Shown: positions 50,221 to 55,648 of the stretch, piece after piece
How the letters are laid out: every line of letters begins with the position of its first letter
Position numbering within the stretch: the first letter of the stretch is position 1
Assembly: GCF_900215245.1 (NCBI RefSeq)
Contig: NZ_LT907842.1
Location: 5,580,001 to 5,644,000 of the forward strand
DNA: 64,000 nt
Direction: 5' to 3'
Source of the DNA: Pseudomonas fluorescens
GTDB lineage: Bacteria > Pseudomonadota > Gammaproteobacteria > Pseudomonadales > Pseudomonadaceae
Notes under the pieces: generated by a model
The model's input: the letters and a program-made list of their open reading frames with translations, nothing else
The model's database searches: none
Told to the model about the DNA's origin: nothing
Program-made: the position numbers and the translations under genes

Positions 50221-50832
50221 ATGTTGACGATCTTTTTTTACGCGCTGGTATTCGGCTTTGTGTTTTGCCTTTCGCCGGGCGCGGTGCTGGCTGAGACATT
50301 GCGCCGTGGCTTGCTCCACGGCTTCATACCGGCCCTGCTGGTGCAGATCGGCTCACTGGTGGGCGACGCGGTGTGGGCGGTGATTGGCCTCACCGGCATC
50401 GCCCTGCTGATTCAACATGACGCGGTGCGCGTGCCACTGACCATCGTGTGCGCGCTGTACCTGGCCTGGCTGGGCGTGCGCAGCCTGATCGATGCCTGGC
50501 ATTTGCCCGCACCCAGCCACGCACCGGCCAGTTCCGGGCGCAACGCACTGGCAGTGGGTGCGGCCATTTCCCTGGCTAACCCGAAGAACATTATTTACTG
50601 GGGCGCACTGGGCAGCGCCTTGTCCGGCATCGTCGGCACCACGCCCAGCCACGGGCAAACCCTGATGTTTTTTGCCGGCTTCATGTTGGCGTCGGTGCTG
50701 TCATGTTTTCTGATTGCCGCGCTGGTCAATTTGTTACGCCAGAACGCATCACCGCTCTGGCAGCGCATCAGTTATGGCGCATGTGGTTTGGTATTGATCT
50801 ATCTGGCCGCTCTGGCGGCACACGGACTATGA
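50221..50832 (+). CDS. LysE-family amino-acid exporter
   Basis: A 203-residue, about six-helix exporter (YALVFGFVFCLSPGAVLAET, SLVGDAVWAVIGLTGIA, ISLANPKNIIYWGALG). The LSPG and N-P-K motifs are the RhtB/LysE signatures. Substrate unknown; it probably exports an amino acid sensed by the AraC regulator just upstream. AAGGAACG precedes the ATG. Confidence 0.9.
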   Translation: MLTIFFYALVFGFVFCLSPGAVLAETLRRGLLHGFIPALLVQIGSLVGDAVWAVIGLTGIALLIQHDAVRVPLTIVCALYLAWLGVRSLIDAWHLPAPSHAPASSGRNALAVGAAISLANPKNIIYWGALGSALSGIVGTTPSHGQTLMFFAGFMLASVLSCFLIAALVNLLRQNASPLWQRISYGACGLVLIYLAALAAHGL

Positions 50833-50910
50833 AAGTTATATAGGTTGTAACTTCAAGGTGCGGCTTAACTGAATGAACTCTGAACACCGGATAATTTAAT
50901 TAATCATGCG

Positions 50911-50939
50911 TTGACATTTTGTAACCGTCTGAGTAGATT
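50911..50939 (+). promoter_or_regulatory. Candidate promoter for the mgtA leader transcript
   Basis: TTGACA, 17 bp, TAGATT, a good sigma-70-like pair. If used, the leader RNA would run about 730 nt before mgtA. A hairpin with a T tract sits right at the expected start, so its status needs testing. Confidence 0.5.
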
Positions 50940-50967
50940 GCCCCTGCCCACAACTGGGGCCTTTTTT
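50940..50967 (+). terminator. Terminator-like hairpin after the LysE gene
   Basis: GCCCC/GGGGC stem with an 11-nt loop and CTTTTTT, about 107 bp past the lysE-type stop. It probably ends the araC-lysE transcript. Confidence 0.65.
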
Positions 50968-51151
50968 AAACCTCACAAAAGAAGCCAATGGACACAGTAT
51001 CTAGTCGCTGTCCGAGCACCGCATCAGCGGGCATCGGGCGCCAAACCCAGAATATGACAGGACTCGCCTTCCAGGTCCGGTAAGCTGCGCTAGAGCTTGA
51101 TGCTCCACCGTAACTGCCTCACCGGTCGCCCGTCCGGTCCCGAGGTGTGTT

Positions 51152-51445
51152 ATGACCTTCCAACTCATTGCTTTACCTGATGTGCGTACACTGGCCGCAG
51201 CCTTGCGCGCCAAGCTGTGCCGCGAGCCCGTCGGTTTTTCGCCGACCCGCTCAACCTTTGCTGCACCCTCTCCCCAAGTGCGCCCGGCTCCTCCGCTGGC
51301 GCACTGGCGTGTCTGCCCTGCCAGCGGCCAATTGCTGCAGCAATGGGATCACGCCGACCCTCAAGACCCACAGAGACCGATGGTTTCCAGACTGGCACAC
51401 GCCGGCCTGATGCTCGGACTTTACGTGAGCACTCGCGCCGCTTAA
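51152..51445 (+). CDS. Proline-rich leader ORF upstream of mgtA, 97 aa
   Basis: A 97-codon frame with CGAGGTG upstream, beginning MTFQLIALPDVRTLAAAL. The middle is rich in proline (FAAPSPQVRPAPPLAHW, then DPQDPQRP) and has no signal or known domain. Position in the mgtA 5' region recalls proline-rich leader peptides controlling Salmonella mgtA/mgtC, but this frame is much longer. It could be an ordinary small gene instead. A GC-rich hairpin (ACCGG/CCGGT, 51121-51138) lies just before the ribosome site. Confidence 0.5.
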   Translation: MTFQLIALPDVRTLAAALRAKLCREPVGFSPTRSTFAAPSPQVRPAPPLAHWRVCPASGQLLQQWDHADPQDPQRPMVSRLAHAGLMLGLYVSTRAA

Positions 51446-51491
51446 GCCGGCTGGAAACAGTAACTTCCCAATTGATGTTCTGGAGTTCTTT

Positions 51492-51530
51492 ATGAACACG
51501 TCCAGTAGTAGCCCGCTGCGCGTTAGTTAA
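51492..51530 (+). CDS. 12-codon leader peptide upstream of mgtA
   Basis: The frame MNTSSSSPLRVS has a good ribosome site (GGAG 7 bp upstream) and ends with TAA inside the arm of a strong hairpin. Short translated peptides ending inside a hairpin are the hallmark of translation-coupled attenuation, as in mgtL-type leaders. It has four Ser codons in a row and a Pro, none acidic. Confidence 0.55.
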   Translation: MNTSSSSPLRVS

Positions 51531-51550
51531 TTAACGCGCGTGTGGCGGGC
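51511..51550 (+). promoter_or_regulatory. Leader hairpin overlapping the leader peptide stop
   Basis: Inner perfect 8-bp arms GCGCGTTA and TAACGCGC with a 6-nt loop sit inside GCCCGC/GCGGGC outer arms. The leader peptide stop codon is in the loop and arm, so a ribosome there would melt the stem. No T tract follows, so it may act by folding or by Rho. Confidence 0.7.
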
Positions 51551-51680
51551 ACACTAGAAGTTAAGTAGTCACCCTATTTAAACCGATCGCGAAGTCCGCG
51601 GCTCGGCATGCTTTCGCTCGCCTGTATTCAGGTAAGTACCGGGTATGTTTTGTCGAGAATTGGCGACAGGAGTACAGACA

Positions 51681-54395
51681 ATGAGCGCCGTAAAAAACAC
51701 GCCTCTGCACAAGAAAAATGGCACCGCCTCCGACACCAAACTGTCGATGCGTGCCGCCCGTGAAGCCCAGAACGGCCTGTCGGCCACCCTTGCCAATGTG
51801 CGCGCCACCCAGGATGGTTTAACCGAACTGGACGCCTCGGCGCGTCTGCAACGCGAAGGCTACAACGAAGTGGCCCATGACAAGCCGCCTCACGCCATCG
51901 TCCAATTCCTGCAGGCACTGAACAACCCGTTCATCTACGTCCTGCTGACCTTGGGCGGCATCAGCTTTGTCACCGACTACTGGTTGCCGCTGCAGGCCGG
52001 TGAAGAAGTCGACCTGACCAAAGTCATCATCATCATGACCATGGTCTTGCTCAGCAGCCTGCTGCGTTTCTGGCAGGAGCACCGCTCGGCCAAATCCGCC
52101 GAAGCCCTCAAAGCCATGGTGCGCACCACGGCCACGGTGCTGCGTCGTGAGCAGGTCGGTGCCCAGCCGACCCTGCGTGAAGTACCGATGCGCGACCTGG
52201 TAGCGGGCGACATCGTGCAGCTTTCCGCCGGCGACATGATCCCGGCCGACATCCGCCTGATCGAGTCCCGCGACCTGTTTATCAGCCAGGCCGTGCTGAC
52301 CGGCGAAGCGTTGCCGGTCGAGAAGTACGACACCCTCGGCGACGTCACGCAGAAATCCGCAATACCGGCAGCCGCCGACCAAGGCAACCTGCTGGACCTG
52401 CCGAACATCTGCTTCATGGGCACCAACGTCGTCAGTGGCCGCGCCAAGGCCGTGGTGGTCGCCACCGGGCCACGCACCTACTTTGGCTCCCTGGCCAAAG
52501 CGATCGTCGGCTCACGGGTGCAAACCGCGTTTGATCGTGGGGTAAACAGCGTCAGCTGGCTGCTGATCCGTTTCATGCTGGTGATGGTGCCGATCGTGTT
52601 TTTCCTCAACGGTTTCTCCAAAGGCGACTGGGGCGATGCGTTCTTGTTTGCACTGGCGGTCGCCGTTGGCCTGACACCTGAAATGCTGCCGATGATCGTC
52701 AGCGCCAACCTGGCCAAAGGCGCCAACGCCATGGCCAAGCGCAAAGTCGTGGTCAAGCGCCTCAACGCGATTCAGAACTTCGGCTCAATGGACGTGCTGT
52801 GCACCGACAAGACCGGCACCCTGACCCAGGACAAAATCATCCTTGAGCATCACGTCAACGCCTTTGGCCAACGTGATGATGCGGTGCTGTCCCTGGCCTG
52901 GCTGAACAGCTTTCACCAGAGCGGCATGAAAAACCTGATGGATCAGGCCGTGGTGCAGTTCTCGGCACAGAACCCGAAGTTCCAGGTGCCGTTTGCCTAC
53001 AGCAAAGTCGATGAACTGCCGTTCGACTTTGTACGCCGTCGCCTGTCGATCGTGGTCAAGGATGCCGCCGGCGACCAGTTGCTGGTGTGCAAGGGCGCGG
53101 TGGAAGAGATGCTGAGCATTTCCACACACGTCATGGAAGGTGGCGATGCCGTACCGCTGGATGAGCGCCGCCGTGAAGCGTTGCTGACGCTGGCGAACGA
53201 CTACAACGAAGATGGCTTCCGTGTGCTGGTCGTCGCCACCCGCAACATCCCGAAAGCATTGGCTCGCCAGCAGTACACCACGACCGATGAGCGCAACCTG
53301 GTGATCCAGGGCTTCCTGACGTTCCTTGATCCACCCAAAGAAACCGCAGGCCCGGCGATTGCCGCGCTGCAACAAATCGGCGTAGCGGTGAAGGTGCTGA
53401 CCGGCGACAACGCGGTGGTCACCAGCAAGATCTGCCGCCAAGTCGGCCTTGAGCCCGGCCAGCCGCTGCTGGGCGTAGAAATCGAAGCGATGGATGACGC
53501 AACCCTGTTGCGCCGCGTGGAAGAACGCACGGTGTTTGCCAAGCTCACGCCACTGCAGAAATCCCGGGTACTCAAAGCGTTGCAAGCCAACGGCCACACC
53601 GTGGGTTTCCTCGGCGACGGCATTAACGATGCACCGGCGCTGCGCGATGCCGATGTGGGCATTTCGGTGGACAGCGGCACGGATATCGCCAAGGAATCGG
53701 CCGACATCATCCTCTTGGAAAAGAGCCTGATGGTGCTGGAAGAAGGCGTGCTCAAGGGCCGCGAAACCTTCGGCAATATCATGAAGTACCTGAACATGAC
53801 GGCCAGCTCGAACTTCGGCAACGTGTTCTCGGTGCTGGTCGCCAGTGCGTTTATCCCGTTCATGCCGATGCTGGCGATCCATCTGCTGCTGCAAAACCTG
53901 ATGTACGACATCTCCCAGCTGGCCTTGCCGTGGGACAAGATGGACAAGGAATACCTGGCCAAACCGCGTAAGTGGGATGCGAAAAACATCGGCCGTTTCA
54001 TGATCTGGATCGGGCCGACCTCGTCGATCTTCGACATCACCACCTTTGCGCTGATGTGGTACGTGTTCTCCGCCAACAGCGTGGAAATGCAGACCCTGTT
54101 CCAGTCCGGTTGGTTTATCGAGGGGCTGCTGTCACAAACCCTGGTCGTGCACATGCTGCGGACCCGCAAGATCCCGTTCTTCCAGAGCACCGCCGCGTGG
54201 CCGGTGTTGATGATGACCGCCATCGTCATTTGCCTGGGGATCTATGTGCCGTTCTCGCCCCTGGGCACCCTGGTGGGCCTGGAGCCGCTGCCGCTGGCGT
54301 ACTTCCCATGGCTGGTCGGCACGCTGTTCGCCTACTGCTGCGTCGCCCAACTGATGAAGACGATCTACATCCGCCGCTTCAAGCAGTGGTACTGA
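51681..54395 (+). CDS. mgtA: Magnesium-translocating P-type ATPase
   Basis: A 904-residue P-type (P3B) ATPase. It has the phosphorylation motif DKTGT with Asp376, the TGEALPVEK actuator loop, the hinge GDGINDAPALRDADVG and the C-terminal membrane helices ending in CVAQLMKTIYIRRF. It imports Mg2+ under limitation. ATG at 51681 follows CAGGAG. The long leader with short ORFs suggests control after transcription starts. A perfect 10-bp hairpin follows 18 bp after the stop. Confidence 0.96.
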   Translation: MSAVKNTPLHKKNGTASDTKLSMRAAREAQNGLSATLANVRATQDGLTELDASARLQREGYNEVAHDKPPHAIVQFLQALNNPFIYVLLTLGGISFVTDYWLPLQAGEEVDLTKVIIIMTMVLLSSLLRFWQEHRSAKSAEALKAMVRTTATVLRREQVGAQPTLREVPMRDLVAGDIVQLSAGDMIPADIRLIESRDLFISQAVLTGEALPVEKYDTLGDVTQKSAIPAAADQGNLLDLPNICFMGTNVVSGRAKAVVVATGPRTYFGSLAKAIVGSRVQTAFDRGVNSVSWLLIRFMLVMVPIVFFLNGFSKGDWGDAFLFALAVAVGLTPEMLPMIVSANLAKGANAMAKRKVVVKRLNAIQNFGSMDVLCTDKTGTLTQDKIILEHHVNAFGQRDDAVLSLAWLNSFHQSGMKNLMDQAVVQFSAQNPKFQVPFAYSKVDELPFDFVRRRLSIVVKDAAGDQLLVCKGAVEEMLSISTHVMEGGDAVPLDERRREALLTLANDYNEDGFRVLVVATRNIPKALARQQYTTTDERNLVIQGFLTFLDPPKETAGPAIAALQQIGVAVKVLTGDNAVVTSKICRQVGLEPGQPLLGVEIEAMDDATLLRRVEERTVFAKLTPLQKSRVLKALQANGHTVGFLGDGINDAPALRDADVGISVDSGTDIAKESADIILLEKSLMVLEEGVLKGRETFGNIMKYLNMTASSNFGNVFSVLVASAFIPFMPMLAIHLLLQNLMYDISQLALPWDKMDKEYLAKPRKWDAKNIGRFMIWIGPTSSIFDITTFALMWYVFSANSVEMQTLFQSGWFIEGLLSQTLVVHMLRTRKIPFFQSTAAWPVLMMTAIVICLGIYVPFSPLGTLVGLEPLPLAYFPWLVGTLFAYCCVAQLMKTIYIRRFKQWY

Positions 54396-54826: not shown

Positions 54827-55648
54827 ATGCACAAAAAACATACCCCTCAACACTCGGACGGGTTTGCCAAATATCGCGCGCGTCATTACCGCGGAGCCCG
54901 CCATACCCTGCTGCTGTTGCCACCGGCCAAGCGCCGCGCACTGCAACGTAACCTGATCTTCATCGGCACAACCCTGGGCCTGGTTTTGCTCGCCGCGTTG
55001 TTCTCCAAAGCCCAGGCGGCCGGCGGCGCCTATGTGGTCGACGACGGCGCGGTGAACGCGCCGGGCGAATGCAATGTTGACGCCTGGTACACCGCCGATC
55101 GCCACCAGGGCAACAACCATGGCCAAACCCTGAACCCGGCCTGCACGTTCAGCGCACTCCCCTATGTGCAATGGAGCGCCGCACTGTCGCGCGCCAGCAA
55201 CGCAGGCGATGCCGAGACCCAGGCCAGCCCGCAAGTGAAGGCGCAGGTGTGGTCTCAAGATGCGTTGGGGCTGCAGGTAGCCGTGTCGGCCACCAGCCAT
55301 TTTGCGCTGGACCGCCACCATGCGTTCGACGGTGCGGACTTGAATGTGCCGTTGACCTGGCAACCCGTATCAGCGCTGCGCCTGAACCTCAACGGTGGCT
55401 GGACACATGCCTACAACGGCGGCGAGCAACACCATCGGCTGACGTGGGGCACCGGCTTCGAGTATGAGCTGGCGGATGCGCTGACGCTGATTGGTGAGCG
55501 CTATGGCCAGGAAGGCGGCGACCAGGCCTGGCAGGCCGGGCCGCGCTTCCATGTTGGCAAAATGGTCGACGTGGATGTGGTCGTCGGGCAAAGCCTCAGC
55601 GGGGACCGCAACCAGTGGTTGACCACAGGCGCGACCATGCGCTTCTAA
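54827..55648 (+). CDS. Outer-membrane beta-barrel-like protein, 273 aa
   Basis: A long basic N-terminus (about 40 residues) precedes a hydrophobic segment (LIFIGTTLGLVLLAALFSKAQA) that would act as a signal anchor or signal peptide, cleaved near AQA. The rest alternates hydrophobic and polar residues (LQVAVSATSHFALD, LRLNLNGGWTHAYN, FEYELADALTLIGERYGQ) and ends in TGATMRF, a C-terminal Phe as in porins. I infer an outer-membrane barrel. It is 18 bp after the SLOG gene, so mgtA, SLOG and this gene may share a transcript. Confidence 0.7.
   Translation: MHKKHTPQHSDGFAKYRARHYRGARHTLLLLPPAKRRALQRNLIFIGTTLGLVLLAALFSKAQAAGGAYVVDDGAVNAPGECNVDAWYTADRHQGNNHGQTLNPACTFSALPYVQWSAALSRASNAGDAETQASPQVKAQVWSQDALGLQVAVSATSHFALDRHHAFDGADLNVPLTWQPVSALRLNLNGGWTHAYNGGEQHHRLTWGTGFEYELADALTLIGERYGQEGGDQAWQAGPRFHVGKMVDVDVVVGQSLSGDRNQWLTTGATMRF

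Follow-up and report, generated by a model that had tools for sequence, protein, structure and literature searches.

Upstream ORFs (uORFs) that control leaders of Mg2+-transporter genes are, to our knowledge, known so far only from enterobacteria. In Salmonella, Rho can terminate within the mgtA and mgtC leaders once their translation is lost or breaks off early. For the Salmonella mgtCBR leader, the attenuator account in PMC3641672 names the tandem uORFs mgtM and mgtP. PMC8092293 describes Salmonella mgtQ as an 8-aa uORF between mgtC and mgtB in which acidic codons 2 and 5 destabilise the ribosome; in section 8, a 1:2/3:4 versus 2:3 pairing plan for mgtQ-mgtB is tested by mutation.

We analysed a 64,000-nucleotide stretch of Pseudomonas fluorescens DNA (contig NZ_LT907842.1), called the window below, in which a gene for a Mg2+-translocating P-type ATPase follows a short uORF, uORF3 (Table 1). 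The original prediction had named this gene mgtA. It was right about a Mg2+ transporter, but the protein is of the MgtB type and not of the E. coli MgtA type, with 67% identity to a protein encoded behind an MgtC-family gene in an E. coli record (L082) and 52% to E. coli MgtA (L083). In mechanism, mgtQ is the nearest described system, and a uORF combined with a switch at the Shine-Dalgarno (SD) sequence is the best reading of the comparative data. As with mgtQ, the uORF lies shortly before an mgtB-type gene, another gene is located just upstream (mgtC in Salmonella, a 97-aa gene here), and codon 2 is acidic in 61 of 90 leaders. Pairing would likewise be exclusive, 1:2 + 3:4 versus 2:3, with the mgtB SD hidden in 3:4 and released by 2:3, as suggested by helices that are conserved and covary. 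Peptide and length differ, however (12 or 41-46 codons here versus 8 aa), and strand 1 of the window lies outside the uORF. Acidic residues at both codons 2 and 5 were not found either: the window reads MNTSS..., with Asn at codon 2, and codon 5 encodes Ser in all 64 leaders chosen without a motif that have the ATG. Beside the window locus no mgtC was recognised; upstream stand the 97-aa gene and then, judged by eye, a LysE-like ORF.

Other systems are more distant. The mgtL leader of mgtA in E. coli and Salmonella also places a short ORF before a Mg2+ P-type ATPase, and many relatives of our locus share an acidic N-terminus with it, but the Pro/acidic repeat (MgtL was translated from the L083 DNA) and a match to the Rfam Mg sensor are absent here, and the ATPase subfamily is a different one. 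With mgtCBR (PMC3641672) the locus shares the presence of multiple uORFs in a single mgt operon, whereas here the uORFs flank the 97-aa gene and a sigma70-type promoter was found. The M-box (ykoK) riboswitch is likewise an RNA leader of a Mg2+ transporter, but neither the window nor 10 relatives gave a gathering-score match to the Rfam Mg sensor or M-box, and no relevant Rfam match at E<=10 was obtained for 50840-51720. Near the mgt loci of relatives, Rfam detected a C4 antisense RNA and an ALIL pseudoknot, both unrelated to the leader (L060:867-955 and L079:8410-8514 on the minus strand). Nor does the locus resemble a trp-type attenuator: a simple scan across 50830-51700 saw a single terminator-like site, at 50942-50959, and the Ser run of the uORF is not conserved. 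In the open-licence literature we found no paper describing a uORF in a Pseudomonas mgt leader. The pseudomonad leader is larger and older than first noted.

Table 1. Features of the mgtB leader and gene in the window
Feature	Position	Strand	Evidence or remark
sigma70-type promoter TTGACA-17-TAGATT, likely leader start	50911..50939	+	only promoter-like match in 50830-51700
uORF1 (MDTVSSRCPS..., 31 codons in window)	50988..51083	+	start motif in 79/81 loci
Hairpin H1 after uORF1 start	51009..51040 (51009-51015 with 51034-51040)	+	95.6% paired, 39 leaders
Helices hiding SD and start of 97-aa gene	51109..51154 (51109-51114/51149-51154; 51116-51120/51142-51146)	+	39 leaders
97-aa gene, conserved small protein	51152..51445	+	112 homologues, those named being Pseudomonas
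SD GGAG of uORF3	51482..51485	+	sequence and anti-SD pairing
uORF3, 12 codons, MNTSSSSPLRVS	51492..51530	+	TAA kept in 30/30 non-redundant rows
Hairpin P2	51511..51550 (51511-51518 with 51543-51550, plus inner stem)	+	96.9% paired, 4/8 pairs with two-sided changes
Strand 1 (P3 5' arm)	51583..51590	+	P3 pairing
P3 (1:2)	51583-51586 with 51603-51606	+	93.9% paired, 2/4 pairs with two-sided changes
Strand 2, pairs with strand 1 or 3	51599..51611	+	2:3 helix
P4 core hairpin	51617..51636 (51617-51620 with 51633-51636)	+	88.8% paired
Strand 3, pairs with strand 2 or 4	51643..51655	+	helix scan, covariation
Strand 4, contains mgt SD AGGAG 51668-51672	51664..51675	+	P5 pairing
MgtB-type Mg2+-translocating P-type ATPase	51681..54395	+	PRK15122, 1720.7 bits vs cut-off 975

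Conservation of uORF3 and its stop

A 12-codon frame with a good ribosome site had been proposed before the mgt gene, and both ATG to TAA and GGAG are present. For comparison we used 80 loci with named hosts (70 Pseudomonas, 10 Enterobacterales), to which 33 ortholog stretches, one of them misplaced (L110), and 7 paralogue stretches were added. Leaders chosen by locus, free of any motif, comprise a fluorescens/fragi-type set of 40, with an mgt protein at least 87% identical and L034, which has no leader, excluded. The uORF3 ATG occurs in 36 of these 40 and in 28 of 28 further Pseudomonas leaders. Together with L051, which was left out of these sets for an insertion and also has uORF3, this gives 65 of 69 Pseudomonas leaders, the window included. 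A start motif, which itself requires the ATG and AGT at codon 5, matched 90 of 95 leaders, a count that includes some species twice and excludes the 10 enteric loci, L034, L051, L075, L110, the 7 paralogue leaders and five leaders whose mgt start was missed by the pattern. The five leaders lacking the motif are L030-L033 and L117, an ortholog leader with a different ORF in this place. In L030-L033, of the gessardii group, ATG and SD are both gone and the mgt gene is retained; most of the P5 5' arm and loop is missing as well, a natural knock-out.

Predicted pairing of the anti-SD before the uORF3 ATG averaged -5.3 kcal/mol in 89 leaders versus -2.8 kcal/mol in 1,780 control windows of the same loci, 8% of which reach the real median. 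At the place of the uORF3 start, 5 of 10 Enterobacterales loci have an ATG by eye; this and the different ORF of L117 weigh against the uORF reading. No uORF3-like ORF was found by pattern in the seven paralogue leaders examined (near 57% identity). Searching 298 genomes of the family with a pattern that detects the long form only, we obtained 45 places at <=2 mismatches versus about 33 for the reversed pattern, an excess too small to be informative; the 13 places with 0-1 mismatch are all in the window's genus. The ATPase itself has a relative at E <= 1e-200 in 141 of 249 genomes of the genus sample. Among the matches listed, 68 places show at least 73% identity and the others, near 57%, represent a paralogue; in 8 other genera of the family, relatives were present in 6 of 14 genomes, all at 56-57%.

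The same start opens a 41-46-codon ORF in 53 of 54 other Pseudomonas leaders. In the 90 motif-matched leaders, uORF3 has 12 codons in 36, 41 in 3, 43 in 14, 44 in 2, 45 in 7 and 46 in 27, and a single one runs for 58 residues, its stop not reached in the stretch examined. An alignment of 72 leaders (A1; 30 window-clade rows and 42 others) revealed a 1-nt gap between codon 6 and the hairpin (column 41) in 30/30 clade rows and 0/42 others. The frame, which elsewhere mostly reads M[DE]xAS[SR][RK]FA.., is shifted by it. We infer that a 1-nt deletion shortened uORF3 in the window clade; the deletion would be the newer state, since it is absent in both other groups.

Within the 12-codon group, residues 2-4, 6-8 and 10-12 are variable, and the Ser run is hence not selected. 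The suggestion of a serine-responsive leader did not survive: the window uORF3 does have four consecutive Ser codons, but Ser at codons 6-8 is not kept in relatives (e.g. MNYPSCNSLRAI, MEEASSYPLRGH) and only codon 5 is Ser throughout. As a conserved function we reject a serine attenuator on these grounds, and we give it practically no chance of being correct. The peptide had also been said to hold a Ser run rather than Pro or acidic codons. For the Ser run of the window this is correct; for acidic codons it is not, as Asp/Glu occupies codon 2 in the majority of leaders given above, and a single base separates the window's Asn codon (AAC) from the common GAC. Codon 5 is written as AGT in 64/64 motif-free leaders with the ATG, a codon used for 9% of the Ser residues in six window genes. 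The surrounding CCAGT (window 51502-51506) hardly varies at the synonymous sites of codons 4-5, even where a partner strand is missing. At codon 6, AGA or AGG is used in 32 of 90 leaders; both are absent among 110 Arg codons of the six window genes.

Variability in the 12-codon clade is lowest at third codon positions (0.20 versus 0.29 and 0.22), and the peptide is therefore not what is selected. The long and putida-type forms vary most at third positions, and the longer peptide may be under some selection. Near their end, the reading frame differs between clades, which argues against a functional peptide C-terminus. Low variability at third positions and the synonymous conservation of CCAGT would also fit a structured RNA or RNA-binding site, for example the CCAGT stretch, as the only conserved element, with the ORF being incidental. 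We hold this to be highly improbable: SD sequence and distance differ by clade, yet an SD-like triplet precedes uORF3 in 84/90 leaders and mean anti-SD pairing is strong in each leader group. Furthermore, SD and ATG vanished together in L030-L033, and the TAA is kept in 30/30 non-redundant rows with variable columns on either side. On comparative grounds uORF3 is real, beyond chance, and the data support selection on its start, SD, length and stop rather than on the window-clade peptide. Absence of a conserved ATG, stop or stem in other Pseudomonas leaders would have spoken against the original prediction; all three are conserved, and its core stands. The four ATG losses in the gessardii group weigh against it, as do the 8/30 rows in which P2 has lost its 3' arm.

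Predicted four-strand switch before mgtB and its proposed link to uORF3 translation

The TAA was proposed to lie in a strong two-tier hairpin, and this is what we found. GCCCGC (51511-51516) pairs with GCGGGC (51545-51550) in the outer tier of P2, GCGCGTTA (51518-51525) with TAACGCGC (51532-51539) in the inner one, and the TAA (51528-51530) sits in the loop; P2 spans the 3' half of uORF3. Across Pseudomonas leaders the stem is conserved and carries two-sided changes (Table 1). For the 251-nt region the predicted folding energy is -88.8 kcal/mol (z -3.1), a value reached by 2 of 200 shuffles. Two further helices are not claimed. A start hairpin P1, pairing the SD with CCAG, is near-invariant in the clade and mostly absent elsewhere, and its covariation did not exceed shuffles. 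The 3' arm of P2 (AGCG/GCGA) could pair completely with CGCT/TCGC further downstream in the 31 long-uORF rows, but this pairing has no two-sided change there; putida-type leaders appear mismatched by eye.

Downstream, an unbiased column-pair scan over all 72 rows ranked 51605-51611/51643-51649 (P4ext) top, then P2, followed by 51599-51602/51652-51655, a 3-pair match 51584/51620, P5 inner, P5 outer and P3. P4ext and its extension 51599-51602/51652-51655 constitute the 2:3 helix, in which 95.1% of cells are paired and 8 of 11 pairs changed on both sides. P3 and P5 (3:4; 96.4% paired in the inner and 92.7% in the outer part, each with two-sided changes) compete with 2:3 for the same strands, and both alternatives covary. 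Both exclusive structures exceeded 500 shuffles and all slides in cells paired, two-sided changes and covariation score, in controls that leave the relatedness of the leaders in place. P4ext (>=6/7 pairs) and P5 outer can both form in 54/72 leaders. The comparison thus supports a switch in which strands 1-4 would pair exclusively, either as 2:3 with the mgt SD free or as 1:2 + 3:4 with the SD hidden. Folds of single sequences commit many long-form leaders to either state (e.g. L048, L052) and give a mixture for the remainder. For the 12-codon clade they predict mainly P4ext, often with P3 and P5 inner, and for the window itself a combination of these three helices, P5 outer being near zero. 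In P. fuscovaginae SE-1 (L051), about 160 nt are inserted between P4 and the mgtB SD hairpin.

That uORF3 is a translated leader ORF, within a leader started by a sigma70-type promoter, and controls the MgtB-type transporter via the strand switch has in our view an even chance of being right. The switch is the part supported by comparison; control of it by uORF3 is an analogy and weakest in the window's own clade. By analogy with Salmonella mgtQ, ribosome traffic on uORF3 could bias strand choice, with Mg2+ as the signal suggested by the gene. Strand 1 lies inside the uORF in most 41-46-codon forms, and in 46-codon forms the stop falls, by eye, in the P4 3' arm. In such long-uORF leaders, a ribosome that reaches strand 1 would free strand 2 to pair with strand 3, exposing the mgtB SD. 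Blocking strand 1 in equilibrium folding raised the predicted SD openness of the long-uORF group by a mean of +0.10 (12 up, 4 down, n=31), versus +0.03 in the 12-codon clade (7 up, 6 down, n=30) and -0.07 in putida-type leaders (1 up, 4 down, n=11). In the window clade, uORF3 stops at codon 12, about 52 nt before strand 1, which lies outside it. Here uORF3 would act only indirectly, by opening P2, by shielding nascent RNA (e.g. from Rho) or through folding order. For the window, predicted openness of the mgt SD was 0.25-0.30 in the ribosome-free fold and with a block at each tested uORF3 position. Of the proposed translation-coupled architecture of the Salmonella mgtA/mgtC kind, the conserved uORF, the covarying stem and the mgt-type plan are present, but folding did not reproduce a coupling to the window SD.

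This missing coupling could be explained if uORF3 acted on transcription, its translation shielding the leader and lost or aborted translation leading to Rho termination before mgtB. Such a mode would suit an ORF of 12 codons at a distance from the mgtB SD and a stop position that is kept although the peptide is not; covarying helices that hide the mgt SD point to translation instead, and we consider Rho control rather unlikely. A simple scan detected no intrinsic terminator between uORF3 and mgtB, a result neutral for Rho. Alternatively, the 12-codon ORF of the window clade might be a decoupled remnant of an ancestral 46-codon uORF, the switch working independently of it. The 1-nt deletion in every clade row, the lack of predicted coupling and the losses of the start (4/40 group leaders) and of the P2 3' arm (8/30) would agree with a remnant. 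A remnant should drift, however, and all 36 fluorescens/fragi-type leaders with the ATG have exactly 12 codons, their TAA being kept in 30/30 rows beside variable columns; we regard this explanation as decidedly unlikely. A uORF acting on the strand switch remains our preferred reading.

The larger leader and its genomic setting

The leader extends further than initially assumed. Its originally noted start, 51152, is the ATG of the separate 97-aa gene, and the likely promoter is located further upstream. TTGAC-16..18-TA[AGT]ATT is found upstream in 76/81 loci, including Enterobacterales; two of the other five loci contain no sequence upstream. Since transcription probably starts from this predicted promoter, the leader is likely about 735 nt long. 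The predicted transcript start coincides with a terminator-like hairpin and T run (window 50946-50966). The fourth pair of this hairpin changes on both sides in 20/39 leaders, and it may end an upstream transcript or cap the 5' end of the leader.

Behind the promoter lies uORF1. Its start motif itself fixes M-D-T, and upstream sequence is missing for the two loci without it. In 76/76 promoter-anchored leaders, ATGGA[CT]AC comes after the promoter. The uORF has 37 codons in 42/79 loci and 31 in 30/79. These loci span Pseudomonas and Enterobacterales, and uORF1 is older than uORF3. In many species both uORFs read M-D-x-x-S-S. Hairpin H1 shows two-sided changes in 3 of 7 pairs; the helices that would hide the SD of the 97-aa gene are paired in 95.7% and 100% of cells and show no two-sided changes (39 leaders each).

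The 97-aa protein, with the core WRVCPxTGQLxQRW, precedes MgtB-type genes in Pseudomonas and Enterobacterales, a similar protein being encoded before mgtB in the latter. The third codon position of its gene is the most variable, and the protein gave no Pfam or NCBIfam match; it is possibly a Mg2+-related small protein. Downstream of mgtB, an ORF (window 54827-55648) has by eye the look of an outer-membrane beta-barrel and invites comparison with PA4824, which is proposed as a Mg2+ uptake protein in PMC11218974, a work whose subject is the P. aeruginosa mgtA operon.

The leader was also matched by ten Rahnella plasmids, and the one examined carries a hypothetical protein and then mgtA. The E. 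coli collection contained no match to the enteric leader. A covariance search with a uORF1 model over 369 genomes of the class, under strict filters, scored strongly in the window's own genome only; eight other matches (E 2e-4 to 0.01) may be due to chance.

Taken as a whole, the leader might consist of tandem uORF switch modules, MDT... before the 97-aa gene and M-D/E-x-A-S before mgtB, each combining a hairpin just after the start with a hidden SD downstream. A strong sigma70 promoter would then leave Mg2+ control of the MgtB-type operon wholly to steps after initiation, through abortion of translation on acidic N-termini. Such an arrangement would date from before the split of Pseudomonas and Enterobacterales, or have spread between both, and the window clade would represent a natural frameshift experiment. 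We offer this tandem scheme tentatively and think it possible, though doubtful.

The leader probably sets how much of the pump is made. Conserved in pseudomonads, among them harmless laboratory strains, it offers natural variants, namely uORFs of 12 versus 41-46 codons, ORF losses and stem losses, and these let one ask what matters in uORF translation: the peptide, its length, the position of the stop or simply that ribosomes pass. It also draws attention to a small protein, conserved but uncharacterised, that is encoded before MgtB-type transporters.
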